Source: a virus. Taken from it: DNA of 60,931 nt. The notes under the pieces are model-generated. The model was not told the DNA's origin and did no database searches. It was given only the letters and a program-made list of their open reading frames with translations. The translations under genes and the position numbers were made by a program. The stretch lies in IMG/VR virus record IMGVR_UViG_3300013104_000026, positions 1-60,931 of that record; one strand, given 5' to 3'. Every line of letters begins with the position of its first letter. Within the stretch, counting starts at the first letter, position 1. Shown piece after piece: positions 353-60,260 of this stretch.

Positions 353-2551
353 CTATACGTCGAACAGAGTAGCTTGGTTTTTGAGAAGAACTGCGCTTTT
401 TACATTCTTCTTAGCCAGGTCGAAATAAGATTCTTTCAACTCAAACCCAATTCCTTTTCTACCCATTTGAACAGCCTTGAAAACCTCACTTCCAATACCC
501 ATAAATGGGGTAAGTATCGTATCTCCTTTGTTGCTGTATAAGTGGATTAATCTTTCAATCGTATCCAGCTGCAAGGGGGCAATGTGCTTTTCATCATTTT
601 GATCGCGGCCGTCTCTGTATCCTTGAAGCGTTTTCCCATAATTAATATCCATCCAAACCGGAGATGCATATTTTTGCCATAAATCAACTGGTAGATCGGT
701 ATTGGTCACTGGGTTTGATCGGTCGCCATCCTTTCTGAATATCATGACATAATCAGGTATTCCTACACGGCTCATTGTACTGTCCTTTTTTACCTGCTTA
801 TGAAGTAGTCCAAGTGCCTTTGTTCTTTGCATTTCAACGACAGGGTCTTTCCAAATCGTAACCCTTGAATGGTAAATAAATCCAGCACTTTCGAAGGATT
901 CCCGGATCATGCCGGAAAAGTCTCGCAGGCCTATAAAACCTTCCTTCCCTTTTTGAATTGGAATATCCATGCAGTGTACTGCTACATTTCTACCCTGCAT
1001 CAAAACCCTGTAAAGCTGTTCAACCAAGAATGAGAATTGAAGTAGAAACTCTTTGTAATCCTTAGAATTGCCCATATCCTCAACATGGTTGCTATATGTG
1101 TATAATTCAGCAAAAGGAGGAGAGAATACAGACAGGCCAACACTTTCACTTTTGACAGACTCAATTAATTGTACACAATCACCTCTTTTAATCGTATACC
1201 ACTCGTTTGACTCTTCAATGACATCATAATTCGCATATTGAATAATATCGCCATTCATGTCGCTATTTACAGCATCACTCATTTCCTTTTGCATGATTTC
1301 AAACTGTTTTTGTTTAGTGTTGATGGATTGAACTACATTGGCCATTGTATCCGTAGTAATCAAATAAATATTAACAGGCCTTATTTGTCCAAATCGGTAG
1401 GATCTCCTCATTGCCTGGTAAAGAGCTTCGAAGCTAAAATCAAGTGACGCAAATATTTGATTTGCACAGTTTTGATAATTCATTCCGAATGACGCAACCT
1501 TCGTTTTTGTAATCAGGATACGAAATTCATTTTCCGCAAAACCTAGTAAATGCTTTTCCTTCCACTCATTACTATCAGCCCCTTTGACTTCAATAGCTTC
1601 CGGTAATAATTTTCTAAGTAGATCACCTTCCTCATTATGCTTAATCCAGATAATGAAACTTTCTTCCGGCTTCGAATTGATGATATCAACAACCTGATCG
1701 ATTCTTTCTATTTTGGTCAATCTTAGTTCGTTATTGAAATTGGTTGCCGATATCGCAGTATTATTAAACAATCGTCCGTTATCCCTTTTAGGGGTAATAA
1801 TCTTTTTCTCAATCAAGTTGAGGCTCGGCAAATCATAACCTTCCATTGGGAATCCAATATCTGACGGATTATTAAGCATGATAGCCCATGACGCAACAAA
1901 CCGATAGAATAACTTAGTTGCGTGACCTTTTAATCTCCATTTTGCAGTCTCTCCACCATCATGAACAAAGTACATGGCAAGCATTTCATTTCTTGACATC
2001 ACATCTAAAAACTCACTGTGATTACCAAGTTCCATAGGATCATTGGGCGATGGTGTCGCCGTACAAGCTAATTTATATGGAGTGTCCTTGAATTTTTCAA
2101 TAATCAACTTCTTTGTAGCTCCTTCGTAGTTTTTTAGGATACTTGACTCATCAAGGATAATCCCAGAATAGATAGAGCAATCAATATTGTCAATCTGCTC
2201 GTAATTATTAATGTGAATATCGCTGATGTCAATTCCAAACTTGAAGGCCTCTTTAATAGTTTGAGCCTTTACTGCCAGCGGTGCAAGGATTAGAACAGGA
2301 AGCCCAGTACGCTTTCTGACCTGATCAGCCCAAGAAAGCTGCTGTATTGTTTTTCCAAGTCCACAGTCTTCAAAAAATGCATACTTTCCAGCCTTCAAAG
2401 CTCGTTGGACGCAGAATTTCTGAAACGGGAATAAGCTACTATTTAATTCATTTTGATCAACATCGAATCCTGAAAAAACAACGGATCTTTGCTTGGATTT
2501 AAGGCATTCAATATACGCCTCCTTTCGGTCGAGGATAAGGGTATCCGACAT
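353..2551 (-). CDS. SNF2-like helicase fused to a DNA methyltransferase
   Basis: A 732-residue two-part protein. Residues about 40-420 form a superfamily 2 helicase/translocase: Walker A GLGKT (64-68), motif II DESS (134-137), motif III TATPSPN (164-170) and motif VI QAMRRSYRFGQ (379-389). Residues about 450-732 form an amino (N4-C or N6-A) methyltransferase: catalytic SPPF (477-480) and, near the C-terminus, the cofactor-binding stretch TPFMGIGSEVFKA followed by GFELKESYFDLA. The permuted order (SPPF before the FxGxG motif) is usual for the beta class. It probably modifies phage DNA while translocating on it. The fusion is a familiar early gene in phages. The leader contains the shared ACTTCATCAAC motif (2562-2571 on the opposite strand). 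Target specificity cannot be read. Confidence 0.93.
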   Translation of the reverse strand: MSDTLILDRKEAYIECLKSKQRSVVFSGFDVDQNELNSSLFPFQKFCVQRALKAGKYAFFEDCGLGKTIQQLSWADQVRKRTGLPVLILAPLAVKAQTIKEAFKFGIDISDIHINNYEQIDNIDCSIYSGIILDESSILKNYEGATKKLIIEKFKDTPYKLACTATPSPNDPMELGNHSEFLDVMSRNEMLAMYFVHDGGETAKWRLKGHATKLFYRFVASWAIMLNNPSDIGFPMEGYDLPSLNLIEKKIITPKRDNGRLFNNTAISATNFNNELRLTKIERIDQVVDIINSKPEESFIIWIKHNEEGDLLRKLLPEAIEVKGADSNEWKEKHLLGFAENEFRILITKTKVASFGMNYQNCANQIFASLDFSFEALYQAMRRSYRFGQIRPVNIYLITTDTMANVVQSINTKQKQFEIMQKEMSDAVNSDMNGDIIQYANYDVIEESNEWYTIKRGDCVQLIESVKSESVGLSVFSPPFAELYTYSNHVEDMGNSKDYKEFLLQFSFLVEQLYRVLMQGRNVAVHCMDIPIQKGKEGFIGLRDFSGMIRESFESAGFIYHSRVTIWKDPVVEMQRTKALGLLHKQVKKDSTMSRVGIPDYVMIFRKDGDRSNPVTNTDLPVDLWQKYASPVWMDINYGKTLQGYRDGRDQNDEKHIAPLQLDTIERLIHLYSNKGDTILTPFMGIGSEVFKAVQMGRKGIGFELKESYFDLAKKNVKSAVLLKNQATLFDV

Positions 2552-38371: not shown

Positions 38372-40939
38372 ATGGCTGGCGATTTAAGTTCGAACAACAT
38401 ACGAATCGGTGCTAATATTGCCGGTCTTCTGGAAGGAATGAAAAGGGCTTCTGCTGCGGTTCGCGGTACGGTCCTTGATATGAATTCCAAGCTTGTTGAT
38501 TCTTACAAACGAGCTAATAAAGAACAAGCTGTATTCCGAGGAGGTCTTATAAAGCTGGGTGATGACCTTCAAGGTTTCGCCGGTAAAATGGCCCTTGTTG
38601 GTACACTGCCTGCATTATTTGCTGCTGGCAAATCATATAAAGACTTCGGAGAGTTAGAGAAGCTTGAACGGGGATTAATTCGTTACGGAGAAACTATTGA
38701 GGGGGTTCGTGAGATTGCTAAATTACCAAACGTCGGTGTTTTCGATGCTGCTAAAAACCTGATCGGTTTAAAGGCAATGAAAATGGAGAGCGATTTAGCT
38801 ACCCGGTCGATCAAAGCTTTTGCAAATGCTATAACCGATGCTGGGGGCTCTGCTGTTGACTTAGATCCCGCCTTGGTTAATCTAAAACAATTCAAATCGA
38901 CGCGAAATATAAATACTGTCGATGTAAGGCAGTTAGGCGGCCGTATTCCACAGACAATGGATGCCTTACAGTCGGCATTTAAAACTACGGACGCTGAGAA
39001 ATTAAATAAAATCATGGCCAAAATTGGCACTGATGGTTTTATTGAAAAATTCATTGTTGAATTAGAGAAGATTCCACCAGCTGCGGGTGGAGCTGCAACT
39101 GCACAAGAGCAGTTATCTGACAGTTTCTTGTTCTTTTCGGGGACCATTGGTAAAGGTTTAGATTCTGCATTGGGTATAACCGATGCAATCAAAGGTCTTG
39201 GTGCCACTCTTGACAATTTATCAACAAACTTTACAAACCTTACTCCGGAAGCGCAAAAATCCATCTTTGCTTTGGGCGCTGTTGTGGTAATCATGCCTGC
39301 TATTATTGGAGCAGTAGGCGGACTTATTAAACTACTTCCATTCTTATCTGGCGGACTTGCGAGTATTGCAGGCGCTGTTGGGCTGACCATTGGGCCATTC
39401 CTGGCAGTTGCTGCCGGTGTGGCCATTGCTACCGCCGCGATTATTACAAACTGGGATTCTATTAAAAAGTTTTTAACAGAAACATCGTGGTGGAATACTT
39501 TTGCGGGAATTACTCAATCTGCTCTGGGTATTATTACAGAAGCATTTAAGCTGGTGGTGAATTTAATTCAAGGAGACTGGACGAATCTAGGCAAATCCCT
39601 GGTAAACATCCTCAAAAATGCCGCAAACGCAATTGTAACAACGCTCGGCGGAATAGTTAAGGCGGCATTGGGCGTATTTTCATCTTTAACACTTGGGTTA
39701 TTTGCGATATTCGACAAGGATAAAACTTTTGGAGATGTTGGTCGAGGTGTCAATGCAGCTGTTGGCAGTGTAGATAAGCTGGTAAACAAATTCAAATTTG
39801 ATGTACCAGATGCAGTTGGATTCGCAAAAAAAGGACTCGATGCGGTTACGGGAACGATAAAAGGTGGAGAGGCTCCTGTTAAAAAACTAGGCAAGGCTGT
39901 TGGAGAAACAGCAGAGGCATACGTTAAAATGACGGAGGCTGCATTTAAAATGTGGCAGATTGATCTTGCAACAAAGTGGTACGAAGAACAAAAGGCACTA
40001 AAAGATAAAATTCAAGGATACAAAGAGCTTTTAGGTGTTACGGCTAATCTCAATGTTGAGCTTATTAAACTATCTAAGCCCTCCTCATCAAGACTCGGGG
40101 ACACAACAACCGATGGTTTAGAACGAGCTAAATCTATCCTCGGCGGAGTTGCTGACCGCAAAACCGGAAATACTCTCGACGGTATTAATGCAGCAAATTC
40201 AAAAAGCAGAATCCCTGGCGAAACCAGGTTAGCTGCTTCACTTGATCTTAATGATTATTTCGGTGGACGGGTGAGCTTGGATAAGATTAAAGCGTATTTT
40301 GAAAAGATACCACAAATAGCCGGCGAGTCATCAGAGGCTTATGGACAGAGATTAGCCGGTTTTGTAAGTAAAACCGTTGGGGCTAGTGAAGGACTTGGAA
40401 ACGCTCTTCGTGATATGGTAGGTGGTGTGGCTGTTGGTTTTGGTGAGATGCTGGGGGATTTAATGTCCGGCCTTGGCGGCGTTGAAACATTTGCCCAAAA
40501 GGTTCTGGGGCTTATGGCATCCATGCTTAAAGATATGGGTAAATCCCTTATTGCCTTTGGTACGGCCGGTATCGCCCTTAAAGTGTTTATGAAAAATCCA
40601 GTTACGGCTCTTGTTGCGGGTATTGCCTTAACGGCTGCTGGCCAGGCATTGGGCAATAACATGACTAAAACAGCTGAAAAAGGTTCAATGACTGCCTTTG
40701 CAAGTGGAGGGTTCGCTTATAAAGATATGGTGGCAAGAGTTGGGGACAACCGGAATGCAAGATTTGACCCTGAAATGATAGCCCCTTATTCGAAGGTGGA
40801 TAAATCGATAAAACAAAGTATTAAAGAATCAGGCGGAGGAAGTGGTGGTGGCTGGGAACAAACCGAGATCGTTTTAGACGGGGATAAAATGCGCGTCATT
40901 CTCGAAAGAAATCAACAAAAACATAGCGCTTTATTCTAA
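38372..40939 (+). CDS. Tape measure protein
   Basis: An 855-residue protein in the standard place. The N-terminus is helical (GLLEGMKRASAAVRGTVLD). Several hydrophobic stretches lie in the middle (about 295-365, GAVVVIMPAIIGAVGGLIKL and LTIGPFLAVAAGVAIATAAI) and near 735-775. It sets tail length and may help DNA cross the membrane. The length suggests a tail of moderate size. A low-complexity GGGSGGGW lies near the C-terminus. Confidence 0.93.
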   Translation: MAGDLSSNNIRIGANIAGLLEGMKRASAAVRGTVLDMNSKLVDSYKRANKEQAVFRGGLIKLGDDLQGFAGKMALVGTLPALFAAGKSYKDFGELEKLERGLIRYGETIEGVREIAKLPNVGVFDAAKNLIGLKAMKMESDLATRSIKAFANAITDAGGSAVDLDPALVNLKQFKSTRNINTVDVRQLGGRIPQTMDALQSAFKTTDAEKLNKIMAKIGTDGFIEKFIVELEKIPPAAGGAATAQEQLSDSFLFFSGTIGKGLDSALGITDAIKGLGATLDNLSTNFTNLTPEAQKSIFALGAVVVIMPAIIGAVGGLIKLLPFLSGGLASIAGAVGLTIGPFLAVAAGVAIATAAIITNWDSIKKFLTETSWWNTFAGITQSALGIITEAFKLVVNLIQGDWTNLGKSLVNILKNAANAIVTTLGGIVKAALGVFSSLTLGLFAIFDKDKTFGDVGRGVNAAVGSVDKLVNKFKFDVPDAVGFAKKGLDAVTGTIKGGEAPVKKLGKAVGETAEAYVKMTEAAFKMWQIDLATKWYEEQKALKDKIQGYKELLGVTANLNVELIKLSKPSSSRLGDTTTDGLERAKSILGGVADRKTGNTLDGINAANSKSRIPGETRLAASLDLNDYFGGRVSLDKIKAYFEKIPQIAGESSEAYGQRLAGFVSKTVGASEGLGNALRDMVGGVAVGFGEMLGDLMSGLGGVETFAQKVLGLMASMLKDMGKSLIAFGTAGIALKVFMKNPVTALVAGIALTAAGQALGNNMTKTAEKGSMTAFASGGFAYKDMVARVGDNRNARFDPEMIAPYSKVDKSIKQSIKESGGGSGGGWEQTEIVLDGDKMRVILERNQQKHSALF

Positions 40940-40941
40940 TA

Positions 40942-43900
40942 ATGGCAATACCAGCTTTTGGATTAAAATACAAAGTACCCTATACTACTTATCAGGGAGC
41001 TAACCGGGAGATACGTATCTATAAAGATGGATACTCAGCAACACCTATTCTTTGGAAAGGTGGTAAAACTCCGTGGAGCTTATCAAAAGGTGATACAGAT
41101 GATGTATTCGGTAATTTAATTGTTTCCGGAGTTGCCACGATTGAAGTCATTATAGAATACCAGCTTGAAATAACCGAGTTTCTTGAAGAACGTCAAAGCC
41201 ATCTTGTTCAATGGTATGACCTTGATAATAATAAAGTCCTTTGGTCTGGCTGGATTGAGCCGTATGATGGAAGAAAACCATATACCGAAGCTCCGCATTA
41301 TGTTACCCTAAAAGCGACCTGTGGACTTGCGCAGCTTAAAAAGATCCGGTATCAGCATACCATCAATGAAAATCCAAAGAAGGTAGCCTTGGAGGTTATC
41401 CGGAAATGTCTTTTCCTGACTGGTCATTCACTGAACATTAATACCTCTTTGTTTACGTTGGAGGTTACCATGCCGGCTGGATCTGACCCGCTTACTAGGT
41501 ACCGACTTAATACAAACAGATATCTTTTGTCAAACGGACAAAGGATGTATGCTTATGATATCCTTCTTGACCTGATGGAGCGGCACAACTGTGAGCTTTT
41601 TCAGGAAAATAACGAATGGATAATCCGAAGTATTCCAGATAATGCCCGCGGATACTTATCTCAGAAAAACTATCTTCCTGGCGGTACTTTCAACTTACAG
41701 AGAACACCATCGTTAGATTACGAGATTAACAACGACAAAGCCCTTTCCCTTAAAGTTGGATCCGTAACAGCGCTTCGCCCTATTAAAAGGTGGTCAGCAA
41801 AGGCGGATCTATTGCCATATACAAATCCAATTGTGAATGGTGATTTATTGGAAATGGACGCCAATGGTTTTGTGGGATGGAATCTTGTTCCAATGTTTGG
41901 TCAGTGGTCAAGCTTTTCAACAGGGAAGAAAGAATCCCCGAATGGTTTAAATATCAACGGGGCTATTTATGCTCCAAATATAATCCGCATAAAACAAAAT
42001 TTTTGGGGAAAGAAGACCGAAACACTAGTCGAGCCAGCCAGGTATGTAGAAGCGCCACCACTTACTTTCAATCAGTGGGTAACTACTTCAATTATCAAGG
42101 TCTTATATCGGCTGGAAGTTCCGTTTAACAGAGCCTCTGAAAATATAAATCTCTGTACCAGCGTATGGTCTGAACGATCTGACGGCACGGATAGGGTATG
42201 GCTACAAAGAAACGGAACATGGAATCATAAATGGGATGTTCTTACCACAAAAGGCGCAACTCCCGAATTAGATATTGCTCCTTCTGAATTAAAACTCGAA
42301 GTGCCGACAGCTCTTATAAATCAAAGAGTGATTGGTACTCCTTTTAAGGCACCTTATGAAATAATACATGTTCGCATTTATCAGGCACTGACAGCATCTC
42401 CCAATGCGACTGATAACCAGATTAACATTAAAATATTTAGTGTTGGCGTAGCAATTAACGAGGGAGTTGGCTTAGAAATGCCCACAAGCGTAAGTTATTC
42501 TTTACAAACCGACAGTGTTGTTGAAGATGAGAATAATGAAGTCTCTTTAATGACGGGTGAAGTGTCCGGGGCTTACCTTTCCGGTATTATGCTTCGCCTG
42601 AATGAAGACACTAACACGACTAACTGGAAAAGAATAGGATATACAGAAAAAAAGACCTCAATCGGTTCTATGATTACGGACCGTATCGCAATGACTGGTC
42701 ATCCATTGGGTACGGTTCAGTGTTCCATTAAGGTTAAGGTTGGTGAAGACGCTGTCGATATATTCCAATATCAAAACTATTTACGTTACGTTGATATAAA
42801 CCCTGATCAACGGTACAAGATAACCCGATATTCCCTTGATGATTTACGGGGGATAATTACGGTTAATACAATTGAATTAAAGCATGCAGACGCACCGGTA
42901 GTTTCTGGTATTACACGTTTGGGGGATTCCGATGCAACGTACGATACCACAGGCGACTCAACTAGTATAGGGCCTGTAATTGTTCCAATTACTGACGGGA
43001 CTACAAATCCAGCGGATCTACAAGATAACGCAAGGATAAACTTTGAGCTTCTTCCGACCATAACCTTTACGGCTGGTGTCCCTGAAATCAAAGATTTGAA
43101 TCTTCTTGAATTTCTATTCCCAGACGCTGAGGAAGAAGATATACCGGATCTTTCCACGTTTGTCGTTACATTGTTCGGCAAGCCTGATTTCATTACTGAA
43201 ATTGAGATCGATGGTTTGATACTTACATTTGATGCTAATCCAAAAGCATCAGGGCAGTATAGCATCCCCTATTTAATAGGTGACCCGGATACAGGGGAAT
43301 CATCGACAGGGTCTATCGTTGTTATTGTCGAGCCAAACGAGGATATAATCGAAGAATGGCCGCCAGTCCTTGACCCGTTCCCGGTGTTATACTTTGAGAT
43401 CAACAAACAGTCGACTGCCGGTTTTCTGATCACGGATTACATGCCAGACCTGGTATATGAAAACCTGAGCTACCGCATCCAGGGCAAACCGGACTGGGTA
43501 AGCACACAGTCTGTTGTTTTCAACCAGCTTGCAGTAACCGGAAAACCTACGCGCATTGAGACAAGGTATATTATTCTTGAAATGCGGGATGCACTGGGCA
43601 ATGTGCATACGGAGCAGTTGACTTTGACCGTAATCCCTAAAACGGTTAATAAGCACTCACTTTATGATACATCAGGTGCGGAGAATGAACTGATTGGTAA
43701 ACTTGCCGGCTTTTATTTCCTGCCTGCTAAATTTGGCATCGAATCAGTTGTATCCGGATATCATAACCGGTATGAATGGACTTTAACTGGTGGCGGACCA
43801 TCAGGGGCGGCGATATCTGTTTCGGGTGGAGAGGATGTTGAACTGACAGACGAGGCAACCTACGGAATACTTCCACCACTGGATGGTATTGCCAGTGTAG

Positions 43901-46900
43901 CAGGTCAATTTAAATACACTTTCAAGACGTTCCGTGATGATACATTGATCAGTGACGAGCTGATTGATTTTACGTTATATGACGAAGCCTATTTAGATGC
44001 AGCCAGCTTTGAACTTTGGGATACTTCCAAAGATGAGGTAATCGGCGTAATCGAGCCAGACGGGAGCAGTATTTTTAAAAAGCCGGTTAGCTTTGATATC
44101 AAATCAATTCTGGCCGGGTTTGACTTTGATAATACGGATTTCACGCTGTTTAAAGATGGCGAAGAGATATTCACCAACGTATTCCCGGAAGATCCTGCGG
44201 TAAGTGAAGCAACCTATGATCTTTTTAGCGAAACAGAAAATCCAAACGGATCCGGTAAGTACGAGCTGATCATGAACAATAAGCTTGATGCAGCTCAGGT
44301 TTATCAGCGCCGTATTGCCTTTGAGATACAAGCCGAACCGGTAAAGCCAGAGCCAGGTATCAACCTGATCACTTTCCGTCAGAATACTGTCAATTACTAC
44401 GCACTGCAATCCCTGCCACTGGTAGGCACTCAGATCGATCTGCCTGAAAACTGGGGAGGTGAAATACCTGTGCCGGTTGATGCAAACGGAGACCCTGTTG
44501 AATACAATAACATGGATTTCCGTGTTTACAACAAAACGACGGGTGCGCTTGTGCCTTTTGATGTTGAGCTTAGAACCGGGATAGCACAAAGCCGCAAATA
44601 CCTTGACGGGCAAGAGAAAGAACCGGTCTTAATCTTCGGTCTTAAAAACTCGGTTGATCTTGGAATACATTCTGCACCATCCTCATTCCGGATTGTTGCC
44701 AATTTCAGACAGGATGATAGTGTCGTTGCGATCAGACAAGCAGATTTCTCTTTCCGTGTTCCTTTGGAACCTGGGGATTATTCCGGACTTCGTTTTCTGA
44801 ATATTAGTGATACAACCGATGTTCTGGATCCTAACATGCCTAAGGCAGGAGGGCAATACCTTTTCCCGGCATCAGGGAAATACAGTGTATCAGTCCGTGG
44901 TTTTGATGGGTTGATGTTTGACAAGATCAAAGTGCAGCATGCCAAATTAATTGGCGGCTCTTATGTTAACGGTCATATGCTTGCTGCGGATGCAGTAGCT
45001 ATCTATAATTCTGAAACGGGTGATATCAATGAAACTCCTACCGAATTATCCGCATCTATTGCAGGATGGCCGGGAGCTGGCGGGATCAGATATCTGAATG
45101 ATCCGGATAATGTTCAGTTTATTATTGACGAGCCGGCTAAATACAAATCAACTTTCACAGGATATCTCGCCGGTGTTGTCATTGGCGTACTTGAAGCAGA
45201 ATTCGAGCTGATTGACGAAGCCCCGGAGGATTTGCCAATTGAAGACTGCTGTGGTGGAGGTGGAGATTCACCTGTTTATGATGATGTGGCCGGAACTTAC
45301 GGAGGTCCTTCAAAAACATTAGTGGTAACAGCAACCGAGAACGGTACTTTATCCGCAATTGAGGAAATTGATATTGAACTTCCGGGGGTAGATTTTGAAG
45401 ATGGGGAATGGGATTTTACCAGTGCGCCAAGAATCCTTTCACAAGGGTCTGATCCAAAGTCAGCGATTACCCTGGAACAGGCGGTACAGATTGCGGCCAA
45501 TGGGAATAACAAGATATCGGTTAAGACCGTCGCAACGTCCAATATCGCGCTGTCGGGACTCCAAACGATCAACGGCTATACAACAGTTGCCGGTGACCGT
45601 GTTCTGGTTCAAAATCAAAGCACACCATCAGAAAACGGGCCGTATGTTGCAGCATCTGGTAGCTGGTCGCGTGCCGCGGATTCTGACACAGGTAATGAGC
45701 TTTTAGGAGCGGCATATTTGGTTGAAGCGGGAGATTCAACGGTAGTGGGTACAAGATGGCAGGTAATTACGCCGTCTGTGATCACGGTAGGGACTACGCC
45801 TATTACAATCATTAAAATCCAGAATGCACCGATCGATAACCGGTGGATATCCGCTCCAAATGTAGCTTCATTGAATGATGCTTATGCAGGCGGTGTACAT
45901 GGTTGGGGAAATTCAACGGCCCTGGCTCCTTCCAATGCAGGCACTATTCTAACCGTGGTAGGCAGCAGCACCACAGGGGATGGAGATTATACACCTTCCT
46001 ATACAAACCAGATCCTGATCGATGTGAATCAGGAAATGTACTTCCGTCAGAGAATATTCGCATGGGGAACATGGTCTCCGATCCGCAAGATATGGACGGA
46101 TAAGCATTTTACCGGATTTGATATTGCAAACTGGAATGCTGCTTATCTGGCGTCATTAAATTTTAATACGCTGTTTGATAACAGGCTTGCGCTTAAAACC
46201 ACAACGAACCTTGCAGAAGGGACGCAGCTTTATTTCACAGAAGCCCGGGTAAGAAATACACCGTTAACTGGGCTGGTTACTACAAACACCGCGGCTGTGT
46301 CTGAAACGGATAGTGTTCTTGTAGCGATCGGTAAATTGGCTGCTGCGAGCGTTGCCTCGGGTGATAGGTGGATATCCTCTCCTAATGTTGCCAATCTGAA
46401 CGATGCTTCAAACGGAGGGGTGAAAGGTTGGGGTAATTCAACCGTCAATGCGCCGTCTGCTGCGGGTAGTATACTGACTTTTGTCGGATCATCCCCAACT
46501 GGTAACGGAGACTCTAACCCAACATACACAAACCAGATACTGGCTGATGTAAACGCAGAACTATATTTCCGTCAGCGTATTTTCAGTTACGGAACCTGGA
46601 CGCCAACTTATAAACTTTGGACAACGAAGCATTTCGCTCAGACTGACATAACAAACTGGAACACGGCATATTCCATGCGGCATGCAGCACTTACGCTGGG
46701 TACTGCGAACGGGTTAAGCCTGGCCGGTCAGGTATTAAGTATGGGATTGGCTACGGGCAGTACGCCTGGTGCTTTGTCTGCGGCGGACTGGACAACGTTC
46801 AATTCTAAACAGGCAGCACTGACCGGAACAGGACTTGTCAAAAGTACGGCCGGTGTTATTTCCTACGTATCTGAAAGCACATTCGCACAATCTGTTCGCG

Positions 46901-48825
46901 CAATACTTGTCGGAACGGGGCTTCTTGGTGGTGGGACTCTGGCAGCCAACGTGGCCATTGCTTTTGATACGGCATGGGGAGATGCGCGGTATTTACAGGC
47001 GTCAACCGGGATGACCGGAAACGGAACGGCCGGATACTTACCCGTATTTACCGGTGCGAAAGTTATTGCCAATTCAATTGTTTCACAGTCGGGCTCAATG
47101 CTCCGTATTGCAGGCGGGTTTACGACGCAGTTTGGAAACAGCAATAGAAAGATTGAGCTTAACTCAACAGCAGGATCATCATACTTCAACTTCTTTGAGT
47201 CGGACTATGTACAGGGCTGGAATATTGAGCACGTAGGTACAGAGCTGAGGATTAACCGTCTGTTTACGGGTGGATATAATTTTGCATTCAGCTTTTTAGA
47301 TACCGGATCGTTGAGGATCAATACGGCTAGTGCAGCGCCATTGATTGTAAACTCATCTGCACTGGTAACAAACTTCAATGCAGATCTTCTTGATGGGCTT
47401 CACGCGTCTGATTTTGCGCGTTCAAACAGAGCGATTTTAGCGGGAACCGGTATTTTAGGAGGTGGGGCGTTAACCGCGAATGTAGCTCTGGCGTTTGACA
47501 TCACTTGGGGCGATGCGCGGTATGCATTGGCATCTCATACGCATACCTTTGCCTCGCTGACTACCAAGCCAACAACCGTAGCCGGTTACGGGATTACAGA
47601 TGCGTACACGATTGGCACGATGGACTTTCTTCTTTCCGGAAGAGTGCCGAATGGTCGTGCGGTCGCTATCGTTGGTACGTCAGGCAGGATTAATTCATCA
47701 GCTGGATATCAGGATTTATCAGCAAACCGGATATGGACACTTGACCTTGCTACGACCGGAGTCGGCGAAGGTGTTTATAAGTCTGTTTCTGTTGACGTGT
47801 ACGGAAGAATAACGGCAGGAACAAACCCAACGACCCTGGCTGGGTACGGCATTACGGATGCTTATTCAGCAGGCGGGGTGGATTTTCTTCTTAGTGGACG
47901 TGTACCAAACAGCAGGGCCATTGCGGTTTATGGAACAGCCGGAAGGATTAACTCATCAGCAGGTTTGCAGAACCTTGCGGCAGACAGGTCCTGGACTATT
48001 GATTTGGCTGGGTCAGGCGTTGGGGCGGGTACTTACAATTCTGTAACCGTAGACAGTTATGGCCGCGTTACGGCAGGAAGCAATACAAGTTATTCCTACG
48101 ATGCGGGCTATGGTATTGGCCTTTCTGGCAATACTTTCTTTGTTGGGGCAGGTGCAGGTCTATTGCAGGATTATGACGGCTTGTACGTAAACTTTGGGCA
48201 AAGTGCAGGACAGGTAGCGCAAGGTAATGATGCCCGGATTAACAACGGGAACACGGCTTACAACTGGGGATACCACGGCAACTTTGGATATCTGACAAGT
48301 ATTAATGCCGGTATGATTACCAGCGCATTAGGGTTTAACCCGATGCCGGATAACCGGACGATTACAATTAACGGTAATACTCAAAATTTAAATAATAATC
48401 CAAATTTTATTATTTCTGTTGGTGGCGGAGGAACGATAACAGGAGGCGGAACAAATGGATATGTAACAAGATGGACTGGCGGTAGTTCAATCGGCAATAG
48501 CAGGATTATAGACAATGGGTTCGGCAATATAACTTTTGTCGGAACGGGTTTAGATGCAACAAATATGAGCCTAAGCAATAATTTTTATGCTGGATCAGGG
48601 ACAATAGGTGGGACATTCTCTGCAACTAATCTTTTCGCAATAAGTTCATTCACTTTACCAACAAAGTCAGAAGCCGGATTGTCGTCGGCGGGGGGCGAGG
48701 GGTCTTTCGCATACGTGAATTCGGGATCCGGGAAAGGGTTCTGGGGCAACTATGGTTCTGACGGATGGAGATTATTAGCAACTCGCGTTTGGGTGGGAAA
48801 TAATAACGGAGGATCAGCACCTTGA
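40942..48825 (+). CDS. Giant tail-tip and fibre protein
   Basis: A 2627-residue protein. The N-terminal ~640 residues (IRIYKDGYSATPILWKGGK, VQWYDLDNNKVLWSGWIEPY) look like a distal-tail/tail-hub region. The middle has Ig/cadherin-like repeats with Asp-rich loops (about 690-1430) around a CCGGGGDSP linker. The C-terminal ~1100 residues are fibre repeats: two pyocin-knob-like units (RWISAPNVASLNDAYAGGV, about 45840-46110; and RWISSPNVANLNDASNGGV, about 46365-46630), two LAGYGITDAY...DFLLSGRVPN repeats (about 47580-48080), and a Gly/Asn-rich end. It has no S74-type chaperone domain at its C-terminus. It probably contacts the host surface. No DGR variable repeat was found in it. Confidence 0.85.
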   Translation: MAIPAFGLKYKVPYTTYQGANREIRIYKDGYSATPILWKGGKTPWSLSKGDTDDVFGNLIVSGVATIEVIIEYQLEITEFLEERQSHLVQWYDLDNNKVLWSGWIEPYDGRKPYTEAPHYVTLKATCGLAQLKKIRYQHTINENPKKVALEVIRKCLFLTGHSLNINTSLFTLEVTMPAGSDPLTRYRLNTNRYLLSNGQRMYAYDILLDLMERHNCELFQENNEWIIRSIPDNARGYLSQKNYLPGGTFNLQRTPSLDYEINNDKALSLKVGSVTALRPIKRWSAKADLLPYTNPIVNGDLLEMDANGFVGWNLVPMFGQWSSFSTGKKESPNGLNINGAIYAPNIIRIKQNFWGKKTETLVEPARYVEAPPLTFNQWVTTSIIKVLYRLEVPFNRASENINLCTSVWSERSDGTDRVWLQRNGTWNHKWDVLTTKGATPELDIAPSELKLEVPTALINQRVIGTPFKAPYEIIHVRIYQALTASPNATDNQINIKIFSVGVAINEGVGLEMPTSVSYSLQTDSVVEDENNEVSLMTGEVSGAYLSGIMLRLNEDTNTTNWKRIGYTEKKTSIGSMITDRIAMTGHPLGTVQCSIKVKVGEDAVDIFQYQNYLRYVDINPDQRYKITRYSLDDLRGIITVNTIELKHADAPVVSGITRLGDSDATYDTTGDSTSIGPVIVPITDGTTNPADLQDNARINFELLPTITFTAGVPEIKDLNLLEFLFPDAEEEDIPDLSTFVVTLFGKPDFITEIEIDGLILTFDANPKASGQYSIPYLIGDPDTGESSTGSIVVIVEPNEDIIEEWPPVLDPFPVLYFEINKQSTAGFLITDYMPDLVYENLSYRIQGKPDWVSTQSVVFNQLAVTGKPTRIETRYIILEMRDALGNVHTEQLTLTVIPKTVNKHSLYDTSGAENELIGKLAGFYFLPAKFGIESVVSGYHNRYEWTLTGGGPSGAAISVSGGEDVELTDEATYGILPPLDGIASVAGQFKYTFKTFRDDTLISDELIDFTLYDEAYLDAASFELWDTSKDEVIGVIEPDGSSIFKKPVSFDIKSILAGFDFDNTDFTLFKDGEEIFTNVFPEDPAVSEATYDLFSETENPNGSGKYELIMNNKLDAAQVYQRRIAFEIQAEPVKPEPGINLITFRQNTVNYYALQSLPLVGTQIDLPENWGGEIPVPVDANGDPVEYNNMDFRVYNKTTGALVPFDVELRTGIAQSRKYLDGQEKEPVLIFGLKNSVDLGIHSAPSSFRIVANFRQDDSVVAIRQADFSFRVPLEPGDYSGLRFLNISDTTDVLDPNMPKAGGQYLFPASGKYSVSVRGFDGLMFDKIKVQHAKLIGGSYVNGHMLAADAVAIYNSETGDINETPTELSASIAGWPGAGGIRYLNDPDNVQFIIDEPAKYKSTFTGYLAGVVIGVLEAEFELIDEAPEDLPIEDCCGGGGDSPVYDDVAGTYGGPSKTLVVTATENGTLSAIEEIDIELPGVDFEDGEWDFTSAPRILSQGSDPKSAITLEQAVQIAANGNNKISVKTVATSNIALSGLQTINGYTTVAGDRVLVQNQSTPSENGPYVAASGSWSRAADSDTGNELLGAAYLVEAGDSTVVGTRWQVITPSVITVGTTPITIIKIQNAPIDNRWISAPNVASLNDAYAGGVHGWGNSTALAPSNAGTILTVVGSSTTGDGDYTPSYTNQILIDVNQEMYFRQRIFAWGTWSPIRKIWTDKHFTGFDIANWNAAYLASLNFNTLFDNRLALKTTTNLAEGTQLYFTEARVRNTPLTGLVTTNTAAVSETDSVLVAIGKLAAASVASGDRWISSPNVANLNDASNGGVKGWGNSTVNAPSAAGSILTFVGSSPTGNGDSNPTYTNQILADVNAELYFRQRIFSYGTWTPTYKLWTTKHFAQTDITNWNTAYSMRHAALTLGTANGLSLAGQVLSMGLATGSTPGALSAADWTTFNSKQAALTGTGLVKSTAGVISYVSESTFAQSVRAILVGTGLLGGGTLAANVAIAFDTAWGDARYLQASTGMTGNGTAGYLPVFTGAKVIANSIVSQSGSMLRIAGGFTTQFGNSNRKIELNSTAGSSYFNFFESDYVQGWNIEHVGTELRINRLFTGGYNFAFSFLDTGSLRINTASAAPLIVNSSALVTNFNADLLDGLHASDFARSNRAILAGTGILGGGALTANVALAFDITWGDARYALASHTHTFASLTTKPTTVAGYGITDAYTIGTMDFLLSGRVPNGRAVAIVGTSGRINSSAGYQDLSANRIWTLDLATTGVGEGVYKSVSVDVYGRITAGTNPTTLAGYGITDAYSAGGVDFLLSGRVPNSRAIAVYGTAGRINSSAGLQNLAADRSWTIDLAGSGVGAGTYNSVTVDSYGRVTAGSNTSYSYDAGYGIGLSGNTFFVGAGAGLLQDYDGLYVNFGQSAGQVAQGNDARINNGNTAYNWGYHGNFGYLTSINAGMITSALGFNPMPDNRTITINGNTQNLNNNPNFIISVGGGGTITGGGTNGYVTRWTGGSSIGNSRIIDNGFGNITFVGTGLDATNMSLSNNFYAGSGTIGGTFSATNLFAISSFTLPTKSEAGLSSAGGEGSFAYVNSGSGKGFWGNYGSDGWRLLATRVWVGNNNGGSAP

Positions 48826-57068: not shown

Positions 57069-57476
57069 TTATTTTAGTTTGAATTCTGATGAATCATGCT
57101 GTCTAAAATGTGCTCCGCTTTCGTCAAACTTCCAAAAACCAGGTTCTCGTACTTTTTCTCCCGGAAGCATTAGTGTAAAACATCCACCTTCTGACATTTT
57201 GGTAATCAGATGAATGTCGGTAGCTTCTACTTTGTGCGAGCACCCTTCTTCGTGAATAAAGTCAAATGTATGATGCCCTAATTCTGTTCTATGAATAGTT
57301 TCGGTATAACCACCTTTCATGATAAATGTTGTAAAATCAAAGGGATGATCATGTGGTTCTGCATCTTCTGGTTCCGGCCCTTTGAAGTGATGAATAACCA
57401 CAGGGAATTCCAAGCCCTCTATGTGGTATTTGTCGAAGAGATCGCTCATCTTCTCGTGTCTGATTGTTAAATTCAT
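57069..57476 (-). CDS. Cupin-like metal-binding protein
   Basis: A 135-residue protein. HHFKGPEPEDAEPHDHPFDF, then FIMKGGYTETIH and a later SHKVEATDIHLI give the HxHxxxxF and distal His of a small cupin, like other phage cupins that carry HxHPxxF and KGGYxE. It has no signal peptide. The substrate is unknown; a role in nucleotide or DNA modification is only a guess. Confidence 0.7.
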   Translation of the reverse strand: MNLTIRHEKMSDLFDKYHIEGLEFPVVIHHFKGPEPEDAEPHDHPFDFTTFIMKGGYTETIHRTELGHHTFDFIHEEGCSHKVEATDIHLITKMSEGGCFTLMLPGEKVREPGFWKFDESGAHFRQHDSSEFKLK

Positions 57477-57717: not shown

Positions 57718-59067
57718 TTAAATTTTATTATTTGGGAAAAGCTTATTCCAAAGATCCCTAAATGCTAATTCTGAGGTTTGTTCAACAACTGAATTGCCAA
57801 TGGCACGGTGAAGATCTTCTGTAAAGTCGTACCCATCAATTGAATACTCCAAGCTGGATTGAGTTTTTGCTTTGATGATACGCTCAGTTTTTGACCATTC
57901 TTCCGTTCCCATAATTTTCTCAAAACCCTTCCTGCCCGTACGCCACAGCTTTCGTAAAGAATTTGGCAAGCGATTTGTCGGGCCGAATATTCTAGGCTCC
58001 TCCCATTCATATTGATGGCTTCCTTGTCCAGCTGGAAATCTGTCATTTTCCCTCTTACGACTGAATCTCTCAGATTCGAAAAGCTTGTTCGACCTGGACG
58101 GATCTCCGTCATTTCCCGACGGATGGCCTTGTCTGTCTTCGGATTCATTTGATCCATCGTTGTTGGTGTTGGACATTTCGTCACGTCTCGTGACAGGCTT
58201 GCATGTTTCCCACTCTTTCTCGAAATATTGTTCGTTTCGTCCGTGGTCGTTGTGAGCCATTTTTGAATCACCTGATCTTCGATACGGCCCTTTGGATTCT
58301 CTGGATTTGTTCCGTTCATCCCATTGGTGGATACTCGCGGTGTCCCCCACGATTGATGAACCACTTGGTTCGTCAATCGATCTAACCGACTCTTTCCATC
58401 CTTCCTCAATAATCCTAACTCCGACACTGCCCCCTTCCAAAGATTCGTATCCGGTGTTCCCCAATTCTTCACCTGCTCGGATAGTTTCGGACTGAAATCC
58501 TCCCTCGTTGTCCCTCCGTGATCCGTAGCCATTGGTGTCCTCCAAGATTGCGAGGATAAATAGTCTTTCTCTCTCATGTGTTGCGCCAACTTCCTCCGCT
58601 GTATAGATTCCAGCCTCAACTCGGTAACCCATATTTCGAAGGCTTTCTTGGACTTGCTGGAATCCCATTGAGAGATGTCCTGAGACGTTTTCGAAAAAAC
58701 AGCAAAAAGGTCGTATTGTGCCAATTGCCGATTCAATATAAGGGTATAAGTGTCTGGGGTCATCAGCTCCGACCCTGTTTCCGGCAAGTGAAAATGGCTG
58801 ACAAGGGTATCCGCCAAGTAGAATGTCAATTTTTCCTCGAAACGGTTCCGGATTGAAGGTTTTAAGATTCGTCCACACAGGTGCTGCATCCACCATACCC
58901 GACTCCATTGCTGACAAAAGGTTTTCCACGATGAAGGTTTCGATTTCCACATAAGCGGCAACTCTGACATCTCGAAATACTCTTTGCACTCCTCTTTCGA
59001 GTCCACGTATTCCTGGGCAAAGGCTGAGGATAACGGGTGATTGTTTGGTAATATCCACATAGGTCAT
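57718..59067 (-). CDS. C5-cytosine DNA methyltransferase
   Basis: A 449-residue enzyme. Motif I LSLCPGIRGLERGVQ (about 14-28), motif IV GGYPCQPFS (85-93, catalytic Cys89), motif VI FFENV (124-128), motif VIII HERERLFIL (164-172), and near the end motif X AIGNSVVEQTSELAFRDLW. It methylates cytosine in phage or host DNA, probably to evade restriction. Between motif VIII and the target-recognition part lies a long polar insert (about 175-400, rich in G, S, R, N, D) with repeats such as EDTNGYGS, GNTGYES and GDTASIHQ. This insert is also open in a second frame (see the overlapping ORF). Its start overlaps the dnaN stop by 4 nt. Confidence 0.93.
   Translation of the reverse strand: MTYVDITKQSPVILSLCPGIRGLERGVQRVFRDVRVAAYVEIETFIVENLLSAMESGMVDAAPVWTNLKTFNPEPFRGKIDILLGGYPCQPFSLAGNRVGADDPRHLYPYIESAIGTIRPFCCFFENVSGHLSMGFQQVQESLRNMGYRVEAGIYTAEEVGATHERERLFILAILEDTNGYGSRRDNEGGFQSETIRAGEELGNTGYESLEGGSVGVRIIEEGWKESVRSIDEPSGSSIVGDTASIHQWDERNKSRESKGPYRRSGDSKMAHNDHGRNEQYFEKEWETCKPVTRRDEMSNTNNDGSNESEDRQGHPSGNDGDPSRSNKLFESERFSRKRENDRFPAGQGSHQYEWEEPRIFGPTNRLPNSLRKLWRTGRKGFEKIMGTEEWSKTERIIKAKTQSSLEYSIDGYDFTEDLHRAIGNSVVEQTSELAFRDLWNKLFPNNKI
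57765..59060 (-). CDS. Overlapping out-of-frame ORF inside the methyltransferase (possible dual-coding)
   Basis: A 431-codon frame, open from ATG 59060 to 57765, almost the whole methyltransferase gene on the same strand. It contains repeated W/C-x-TP motifs: SWRTPMATDHGG (172-183), NWGTPDTN (199-206), SWGTPRVSTNG (237-247), KCPTPTTMD (296-304), then KLNPAW (399-404) and LMG (408-410). Each TP repeat lies opposite a DTNGYGS-type repeat of the methyltransferase. From memory, W-x-TP-x-A-x-D repeats and LNPxWVExLMG occur in proteins encoded with phage C5 methyltransferases, so this frame may be translated, or it may mark an ancestral frame shift. No dedicated leader is visible. Expression is unproven. 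Confidence 0.4.
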   Translation of the reverse strand: MWILPNNHPLSSAFAQEYVDSKEECKEYFEMSELPLMWKSKPSSWKTFCQQWSRVWWMQHLCGRILKPSIRNRFEEKLTFYLADTLVSHFHLPETGSELMTPDTYTLILNRQLAQYDLFAVFSKTSQDISQWDSSKSKKAFEIWVTELRLESIQRRKLAQHMREKDYLSSQSWRTPMATDHGGTTREDFSPKLSEQVKNWGTPDTNLWKGAVSELGLLRKDGKSRLDRLTNQVVHQSWGTPRVSTNGMNGTNPENPKGRIEDQVIQKWLTTTTDETNNISRKSGKHASLSRDVTKCPTPTTMDQMNPKTDKAIRREMTEIRPGRTSFSNLRDSVVRGKMTDFQLDKEAINMNGRSLEYSARQIACQILYESCGVRAGRVLRKLWERKNGQKLSVSSKQKLNPAWSIQLMGTTLQKIFTVPLAIQLLNKPQN

Positions 59068-60260
59068 ATTAGATGATTCCAGGTAACGGGCATAACTAAA
59101 AATTCAAAATCTGGCTCAGCGGATGCGGTCATTGTAAACTGTCTGTCTGGTGTGGTGCCTTTAATAGTTACCGTTCCACTGGATATCTTGGATAATGATC
59201 GCATAACTAATGTAGGGTTAAATCCAACAAAGTATTCTTCTCCCTGATATTCATTCAATACAAACTCCTCCTCTCCGTTATTGCCGAAATTGGTGTCATT
59301 TGTTTCAATTTTCATTAAACAATCAGATAATACCATACGAGTCTGTCCAATGCCTGAAATAATACTAATTCGGTTCAATGCAGATTTAAATGCATTAATT
59401 TCAGCTACGGCACATATTGAACTAGACTTAGGGAATGCATTTTCAATCTCTGGATATTTCTCTTCGATAAGAAGGAAAAATACACTTGTGGCTTTATTTG
59501 AAAACTGAGCCCCATTGCCTGAAAGCCTTAGTTCGATATCACCCGTGTTAAGTTCAGATAAAAGGCTCGCAGCCTTCGAAGGAATGACGAAATTTAGATT
59601 TTCCTCAATGTGAGATTCATGTTTAAATTCAAACTTTGATATGGAGTGCATATCTGCTCCGTGCATCTTTATCACATCAGGCCTAACTTCAAAGTATATG
59701 CCGTTAAGTGCTGGCATTAAAGTATCTGTTGATGTGAAATCTTTACAGAAAAGTATCCCTTTGGATATAGCCGAACTTGGAAGTATTACGGGTTCAATCT
59801 CTGAGAAATCAGGGCCCTTAGGGAAATCAATCGGATCATCGGTTTCGAAACTATAACAATTTCCGTTGCAGGAAATCTCGATATTATGAACGATTTTTAT
59901 TACTTCTCCGCCTTTCACTTCGGATGTAATATGTGATATTTCAACCGGAGCATCCGGAAGGTTTTGTAGGAGTTTAATTCCCGGTCCGGCAGGAAAAGAG
60001 AAATGTGATTTATTTCCTATTTCATTAAAATACAGCTTTGTGACTATAATCTGTTTGGTGTCGGTTGCTGTTAATTTTAACGAGTCACCTTCAACCTGAA
60101 CCAATATGTTTGCTACTGCTGGCACTATTGGCTTTGAGGAAATAACCTTACTTACAATTGAGCAAGCACTTAGAAATCTCTTTGAATTGATGGATATTTT
60201 CGAAACAATTGTTCCTCCTTTTACTTTTTTTGATTTTGGTAATTCTGCTATTTCTGACAT
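59064..60260 (-). CDS. dnaN: DNA polymerase III beta subunit (sliding clamp)
   Basis: A 398-residue clamp, near the usual 370 with an extra ~22-residue N-terminal tail. SKISINSKRFLSACSIVSKV and PAVANILVQVEGDSLKLTATD start domain I; LPALNGIYFEVRPDVI-like strand (MPALNGIYFEVRPDV) and GADMHSISKFEF mark domain II; the C-terminus FLVMPVTWN resembles the conserved MPM(R/K) end. It gives a polymerase processivity. No phage DNA polymerase gene was seen, so it may recruit the host enzyme. Confidence 0.92.
   Translation of the reverse strand: MSEIAELPKSKKVKGGTIVSKISINSKRFLSACSIVSKVISSKPIVPAVANILVQVEGDSLKLTATDTKQIIVTKLYFNEIGNKSHFSFPAGPGIKLLQNLPDAPVEISHITSEVKGGEVIKIVHNIEISCNGNCYSFETDDPIDFPKGPDFSEIEPVILPSSAISKGILFCKDFTSTDTLMPALNGIYFEVRPDVIKMHGADMHSISKFEFKHESHIEENLNFVIPSKAASLLSELNTGDIELRLSGNGAQFSNKATSVFFLLIEEKYPEIENAFPKSSSICAVAEINAFKSALNRISIISGIGQTRMVLSDCLMKIETNDTNFGNNGEEEFVLNEYQGEEYFVGFNPTLVMRSLSKISSGTVTIKGTTPDRQFTMTASAEPDFEFLVMPVTWNHLI

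Follow-up and report, generated by a model that had tools for sequence, protein, structure and literature searches.

Evidence for a dual-coding phage gene that probably specifies a C5-cytosine DNA methyltransferase split into two subunits

A methyltransferase gene of a tailed phage almost certainly encodes two proteins in overlapping reading frames, and the gene is best read, with high probability, as that of a split and probably two-subunit C5-cytosine DNA methyltransferase in which the gene for the small subunit is overprinted on the gene for the large one. The window analysed is the whole stretch of 60,931 nucleotides of IMG/VR record IMGVR_UViG_3300013104_000026, a tailed-phage contig carrying terminase, portal, major head protein and tape measure. 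The catalytic frame, alpha (57718-59067, minus strand, 449 aa), and the frame at +1 to it, beta (57765-59060, minus strand, 431 aa), are both open, as an earlier note on this DNA had described, with beta running for 431 codons. Beta spans 96% of alpha: its start lies 7 nt downstream of the alpha ATG, and it terminates 47 nt short of the alpha stop. The +2 frame is closed, and its 26 stops in the window and 1257 stops over 69 loci rule out coding in that frame.

Alpha matches PF00145 at 2.1e-27 (residues 13-235) and PHROG_363 at 2e-40, and the SAM-binding and catalytic motifs expected of PF00145 are present, with PCQPFS and ENV invariant. The catalytic domain (residues 10-178, 58534-59040, minus strand), which also contains invariant residues, was predicted by AlphaFold with a pLDDT of about 95 over most of its length, and the predicted domain matches M.HaeIII (Foldseek 2.6e-13) and M.HhaI; inside it lie motif IV, PCQPFS (58789-58806, minus strand), and motif VI, ENV (58684-58692, minus strand). 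Residues 179-340 (58048-58533, minus strand), opposite the W-x-TP repeats of beta, are predicted to be disordered (AlphaFold pLDDT <50). They are followed by a FPAGQGSHQYEWEEPR (QYEWE) block conserved in the alignment (residues 344-359, 57991-58038, minus strand), which is possibly a part of the target-recognition region retained by alpha, and by motif X, AIGNSVV (residues 422-428, 57784-57804, minus strand), in which G424 and N425 are invariant. Motifs I-VIII and X are present, and the motif IX pattern was found in alpha in none of 90 loci. A complete single-chain enzyme holds motif IX and a complete small domain in one chain, which alpha does not; because it is without motif IX and residues 179-340 are predicted to be disordered, alpha was classed with the split enzymes, as their catalytic component, and not as a complete single chain.

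The protein search with the second frame, proposed in the earlier note, showed that beta matches PHROG_1008, a family labelled 'DNA methyltransferase', at 4.5e-14 in the window, and 68 of 69 betas match this family. The KLNPAW and LMG noticed in the second frame are located at beta residues 399-410 and include the block LNPAWSIQLMG (residues 400-410, 57831-57863, minus strand), of which L400, N401, P402, L408, M409 and G410 are near-invariant in 65 betas; LNPxWVExLMGxPxGWT or close variants end beta in 72 of 73 loci. This C-terminal block resembles motif IX (LTPRExxRLQGFP), and we infer that it is motif IX on the basis of the motif order, the pattern and the links to JKSyngboy and PHROG_116 described below, the direct profile comparison of the LNPxWVExLMG block with the canonical motif IX of single-chain methyltransferases being not significant. 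When predicted alone by AlphaFold, beta was of low confidence (pLDDT 57), with residues 140-160 and 360-410 as the best stretches, and sequence and fold comparison found neither a fold nor a solved-structure relative of beta.

The two frames also carry repeats in register, and the suggestion that one DNA repeat encodes two different protein repeats was borne out, as the W-x-TP units of beta sit exactly on the repeats of alpha. The units pair W173-RTP of beta with L175-EDTN of alpha (58534-58544), W200-GTP with L202-GNT (58453-58463), and W238-GTP with V240-GDT (58339-58349), all on the minus strand, and degenerate units pair WLTT268 with MAHN270 and CPTP296 with MSNTN298. The W.TP pattern was counted 3 times versus 0.28 expected in the window gene, and 163 times versus 18.6 expected over 69 loci. 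The DNA core TGGN3ACNCC is not enriched in the whole window (6 versus 3.9 expected), and three of the six occurrences are found here, in phase. Since any W-x-T-P in beta restricts alpha to [LMV]-x-[DNHY]-[TASP], the LEDT, LGNT, VGDT and LADT repeats of alpha are mostly a shadow of those in beta.

The openness of the second frame was compared with chance by synonymous-codon permutation, in which one protein was kept and the other frame was scored for stops. With the synonymous codons of alpha permuted, the +1 frame acquired a mean of 6.8 stops and was free of stops in one of 20,000 runs; when the codons of beta were permuted instead, its protein being kept, the alpha frame acquired a mean of 20.2 stops and was never open. 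Summed over 69 non-redundant loci, the number of +1 stops expected within the span of beta was 434.6, the observed zero being set by the definition of the ORF. With beta fixed, the stops expected in alpha were 383 in the N-terminal, 172 in the middle and 236 in the C-terminal part, and the observed zero is again set by the ORF. Of 73 non-redundant homologous loci, 69 have a beta frame extending over 90% or more of alpha; the median overlap is 330 codons. Chance openness of the +1 frame was thus rejected by the synonymous permutation in combination with the single-chain controls.

Homologues were collected from IMG/VR, GenBank phages and GTDB genomes, and nearly all of those from IMG/VR have a +1 frame open over 700-1500 nt, which is not so for the +2 frame. 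To measure constraint, each alpha protein was fixed, its codons were redrawn from its own usage, and the resulting +1 translations were compared. For 26 loci below 65% identity the mean BLOSUM similarity of beta was 0.87 versus 0.12 (sd 0.023) in simulation (z=32, a value that is not a probability), and 10 of the 11 segments showed a clear excess over simulation. Among the loci closest to that of the window, the third position of alpha codons 1-60, which is the second position of beta, varies less than the first (0.26 versus 0.34), the reverse of the pattern in a normal gene, and the identity of beta there (66%) equals that of alpha (64%).

The controls showed a different behaviour. The 72 single-chain phage C5 methyltransferases of the CHPC1175 type have 1373 stops in the +1 frame in total and none is stop-free, and 11 single-chain C5 methyltransferases, taken from bacterial genomes in which nested ones occur as well, have 7-38 stops each; in those same genomes the longest open +1 run was 29-120 codons in the single-chain controls versus 192-368 codons in the nested genes. 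The similarity test gave z=-0.2 for 11 divergent single-chain methyltransferases versus z=21 for a nested set of equal size. A closer control group (<76% identity) gave z=11, which indicates that shared ancestry inflates the test and that z values should not be taken as probabilities; the CHPC1175-like genes were too similar for a z value and only their stop counts were used. Owing to this inflation, more weight was given to the stop counts and to the sets of divergent sequences. The earlier note had expected true dual coding to fail if homologous methyltransferase genes had many stops in the second frame and normal synonymous variation in the first; the synonymous-site comparison it proposed found the second frame open and the third codon positions constrained across alpha homologues. 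True dual coding, the first of its two options, is thus well supported for the window, and single-chain methyltransferases do carry +1 stops.

Genomes of 84,980 bacterial and archaeal species were scanned blindly with the beta motif Px[WF]VE[WC]LMG alone, and after confirmation through similarity to beta at least 331 relatives were found. In the best 80 of these, the N-terminus of alpha was found upstream in 80 of 80, with the motif nested in the +1 frame inside the alpha ORF in 77 and lying just past the alpha stop in 3.

The starts of the two frames are close to each other. The dual start ATGACCTATGTG (59056-59067, minus strand) contains the alpha ATG (59065-59067) and the beta ATG (59058-59060), the latter overlapped by an alternative alpha GTG (59056-59058, minus strand), and an ATGA overlap (59064-59067, minus strand) places the stop codon of a DNA polymerase sliding-clamp gene (59064-60260, minus strand), which lies immediately upstream, over the alpha start. 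A comparable coupling of clamp stop and alpha start is found in phages C75C1 and Yong-M2-251 (loci L001 and L006). The starts of alpha and beta are no more than 30 nt apart in 70 of 73 loci, the beta start is ATGTGG in 51 of 70 loci, and the predicted alpha start is the GTG within ATGTG in 37. Given the neighbouring starts and the ATGA overlap, a single ribosome-landing site or termination-reinitiation could serve both frames.

Among the relatives several other arrangements are found. In Gordonia phages Float294 and Upyo, beta continues past the alpha stop and carries LPTP repeats, an LNPxxxEWMMG block and motif X, and residues 136-179 of the Camerico beta, which comprise the block and motif X, match the methyltransferase profile PHROG_116 just past motif VIII. 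In Gordonia phage JKSyngboy, gp4 (locus L113, 1489-2553) has motifs I-VIII, the IX-like block and motif X in a single chain, and its C-terminus matches the betas of Camerico (9e-16) and Float294 (3e-23). The PTP repeats of this locus are still in the +1 frame and the IX-like block and motif X are in the main, alpha frame, pointing to a frame swap just before the block, so that this single-chain C5 methyltransferase looks like a frame-shift fusion. Six of 90 loci have motif X in beta; in most, alpha carries it. The second option of the earlier note, a family in which frames were swapped in evolution, accordingly holds for relatives (the IX block of JKSyngboy and motif X in beta), and for the window itself dual coding is the supported reading. 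In four further loci (L081, L082, L098 and L088) a short alpha of about 175-260 aa is accompanied by a much longer beta that extends past the alpha stop, and these are intermediates between the nested and the tandem form. In Rhodococcus phage ReT1v-2 (L106), a methyltransferase-like frame is open for about 400 codons at 1437-2649, where the record annotates fragments ('hypothetical protein' and a 50-aa 'DNA methyltransferase').

Alpha and beta are probably partners, the second frame supplying the missing part of the same enzyme, and we are fairly confident that beta would be its motif-IX/recognition subunit. The split enzyme is preferred because alpha is without motif IX, beta is conserved beyond the demands of alpha, and the repeats and the motif are kept where the overlap is absent; alpha also has the layout of an EcoHK31I-type large subunit, which bears motifs I-VIII and X. 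Beta could instead be real and translated without being a subunit, as an independent overprinted factor that, for example, counters restriction or regulates the methylase, and the first 370 residues of beta, which have no recognisable fold or Pfam family, would agree with this, as would the frequent appearance of new functions among overprinted viral genes (PMC8227390). We consider this unlikely, as motif IX is absent from alpha in all 90 loci and beta bears the IX-like block, the block directly precedes motif X in fused and tandem forms, and beta never occurs apart from alpha in the best 80 of at least 331 blind matches.

It is very improbable that beta is untranslated and the open +1 frame a by-product of the composition, codon bias and repeats of alpha. 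The +1 frame of GC-rich actinophages is frequently open by chance, and W-x-TP and L-x-D-T imply one another at the DNA level; however, synonymous permutation breaks the frame, third positions are constrained, the single-chain controls are without the feature, and the repeats are kept where alpha no longer overlaps. Programmed frameshifting that joins the two frames, or a frame swap into one chain, has precedents of a kind in the frame-swapped single chain of JKSyngboy and in the six of 90 loci with motif X in beta, but beta in the window and in most loci starts at a conserved codon of its own next to the alpha start and has a C-terminus apart from motif X, and a frameshift product would need no near-complete overlap of two full frames, so that there is very little probability left for this explanation.

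In the split enzyme that we favour, the alpha frame would provide motifs I-VIII in a domain for SAM binding and catalysis, followed by a long flexible stretch, the short conserved QYEWE block and motif X, and beta would contribute the motif-IX/target-recognition part that is absent from alpha, with the W-x-TP repeats ahead of it. Both proteins may be produced from one mRNA through the choice of neighbouring start codons, aided by coupling to the upstream clamp gene, and would then assemble into one enzyme methylating phage DNA. Beta would accordingly be translated and bind alpha, and the presumed purpose would be protection from host restriction. A more tentative suggestion, to which we give less than even chances, is that the W/L-x-TP repeats are exchangeable recognition modules in very widespread dual-coded heterodimeric C5 methyltransferases of phages and prophages; if so, gain or loss of a DNA repeat would shift specificity with both frames staying open, and a single AUGUG start would set the ratio of the subunits.

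Other genes of the window were also noted. Close to the methylase, a small protein at 57069-57476 (minus strand) matches PHROG_4786, 'cysteine dioxygenase' (3e-16). At 353-2551 (minus strand), a protein of 732 aa combines an N-terminal part of SNF2/helicase type (Helicase_C 9.7e-7) with an N6/N4-type DNA methylase domain (PF01555, 6.6e-19), and the phage therefore has a second DNA methylase, unrelated to alpha. A 247-aa ORF at 38683-39426 (minus strand), antisense to the tape-measure gene (38372-40939), has no Pfam match and is possibly due to chance, and a 2627-aa ORF adjoining the tape-measure gene (40942-48825, plus strand) likewise has no Pfam match.

The comparisons across genomes support well that natural selection has maintained this dual-use methylase gene in numerous phages and bacterial genomes. 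Several of the public annotations checked name just one of the two proteins, with phages C75C1 and Yong-M2-251 among several records that annotate only alpha, and the methylase then looks like a complete single enzyme. Methylase genes of the nested type probably need the hidden partner, and alpha cloned alone is expected to fail. With a median of 330 codons over 73 loci, the gene is among the longer same-strand and near-complete overlaps in which both frames are constrained. Single-chain, tandem, partly overlapping and fully nested forms all survive, and therefore provide a good natural series for the origin and upkeep of overlapping genes.

In the PMC literature, outside of which most subscription journals lie, no description of a nested phage methylase family was found. 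Out-of-frame HNH endonucleases hidden in mycobacteriophage methylases, of the ShiLan type, have been described (PMC11855218), and they resemble the present case in that the gene of a phage DNA methylase harbours a second protein in a different frame. That type is a mobile HNH insertion in the third frame, whereas beta spans the whole gene and the Pfam scans gave no match to an HNH family in the second frame, so that a hidden endonuclease of this kind was excluded. Paenibacillus phage Shelly g55 belongs to PHROG_1008 like the window beta and is annotated as an 'internal gene' in the second frame of a methyltransferase gene, but with 234 aa it is shorter, its start lying about 61 codons inside alpha. 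M.AquI is a two-polypeptide C5 methyltransferase divided into a catalytic part and a part with recognition and motif IX (PMC3404938). Its small subunit holds motifs IX and X, which sets it apart from the window, where motif X stays in alpha; Camerico, Float294 and Upyo are more like M.AquI, motifs IX and X being together in the second polypeptide in the Camerico type. In M.EcoHK31I, the small subunit, a protein of 176 aa, is encoded within the large-subunit gene in a different frame. This two-polypeptide C5 methyltransferase (YGGCCR) has motifs I-VIII, X and the TRD in its alpha polypeptide and motif IX only in its small subunit (PMC3404938). By motif layout the window gene is alike in the motifs I-VIII and X held by alpha, and would be alike in motif IX if the IX-like block of beta is that motif; it differs in being a phage gene, in the 431 aa of beta with its W-x-TP repeats, and in an overlap that begins 7 nt from the alpha start and extends almost from end to end.
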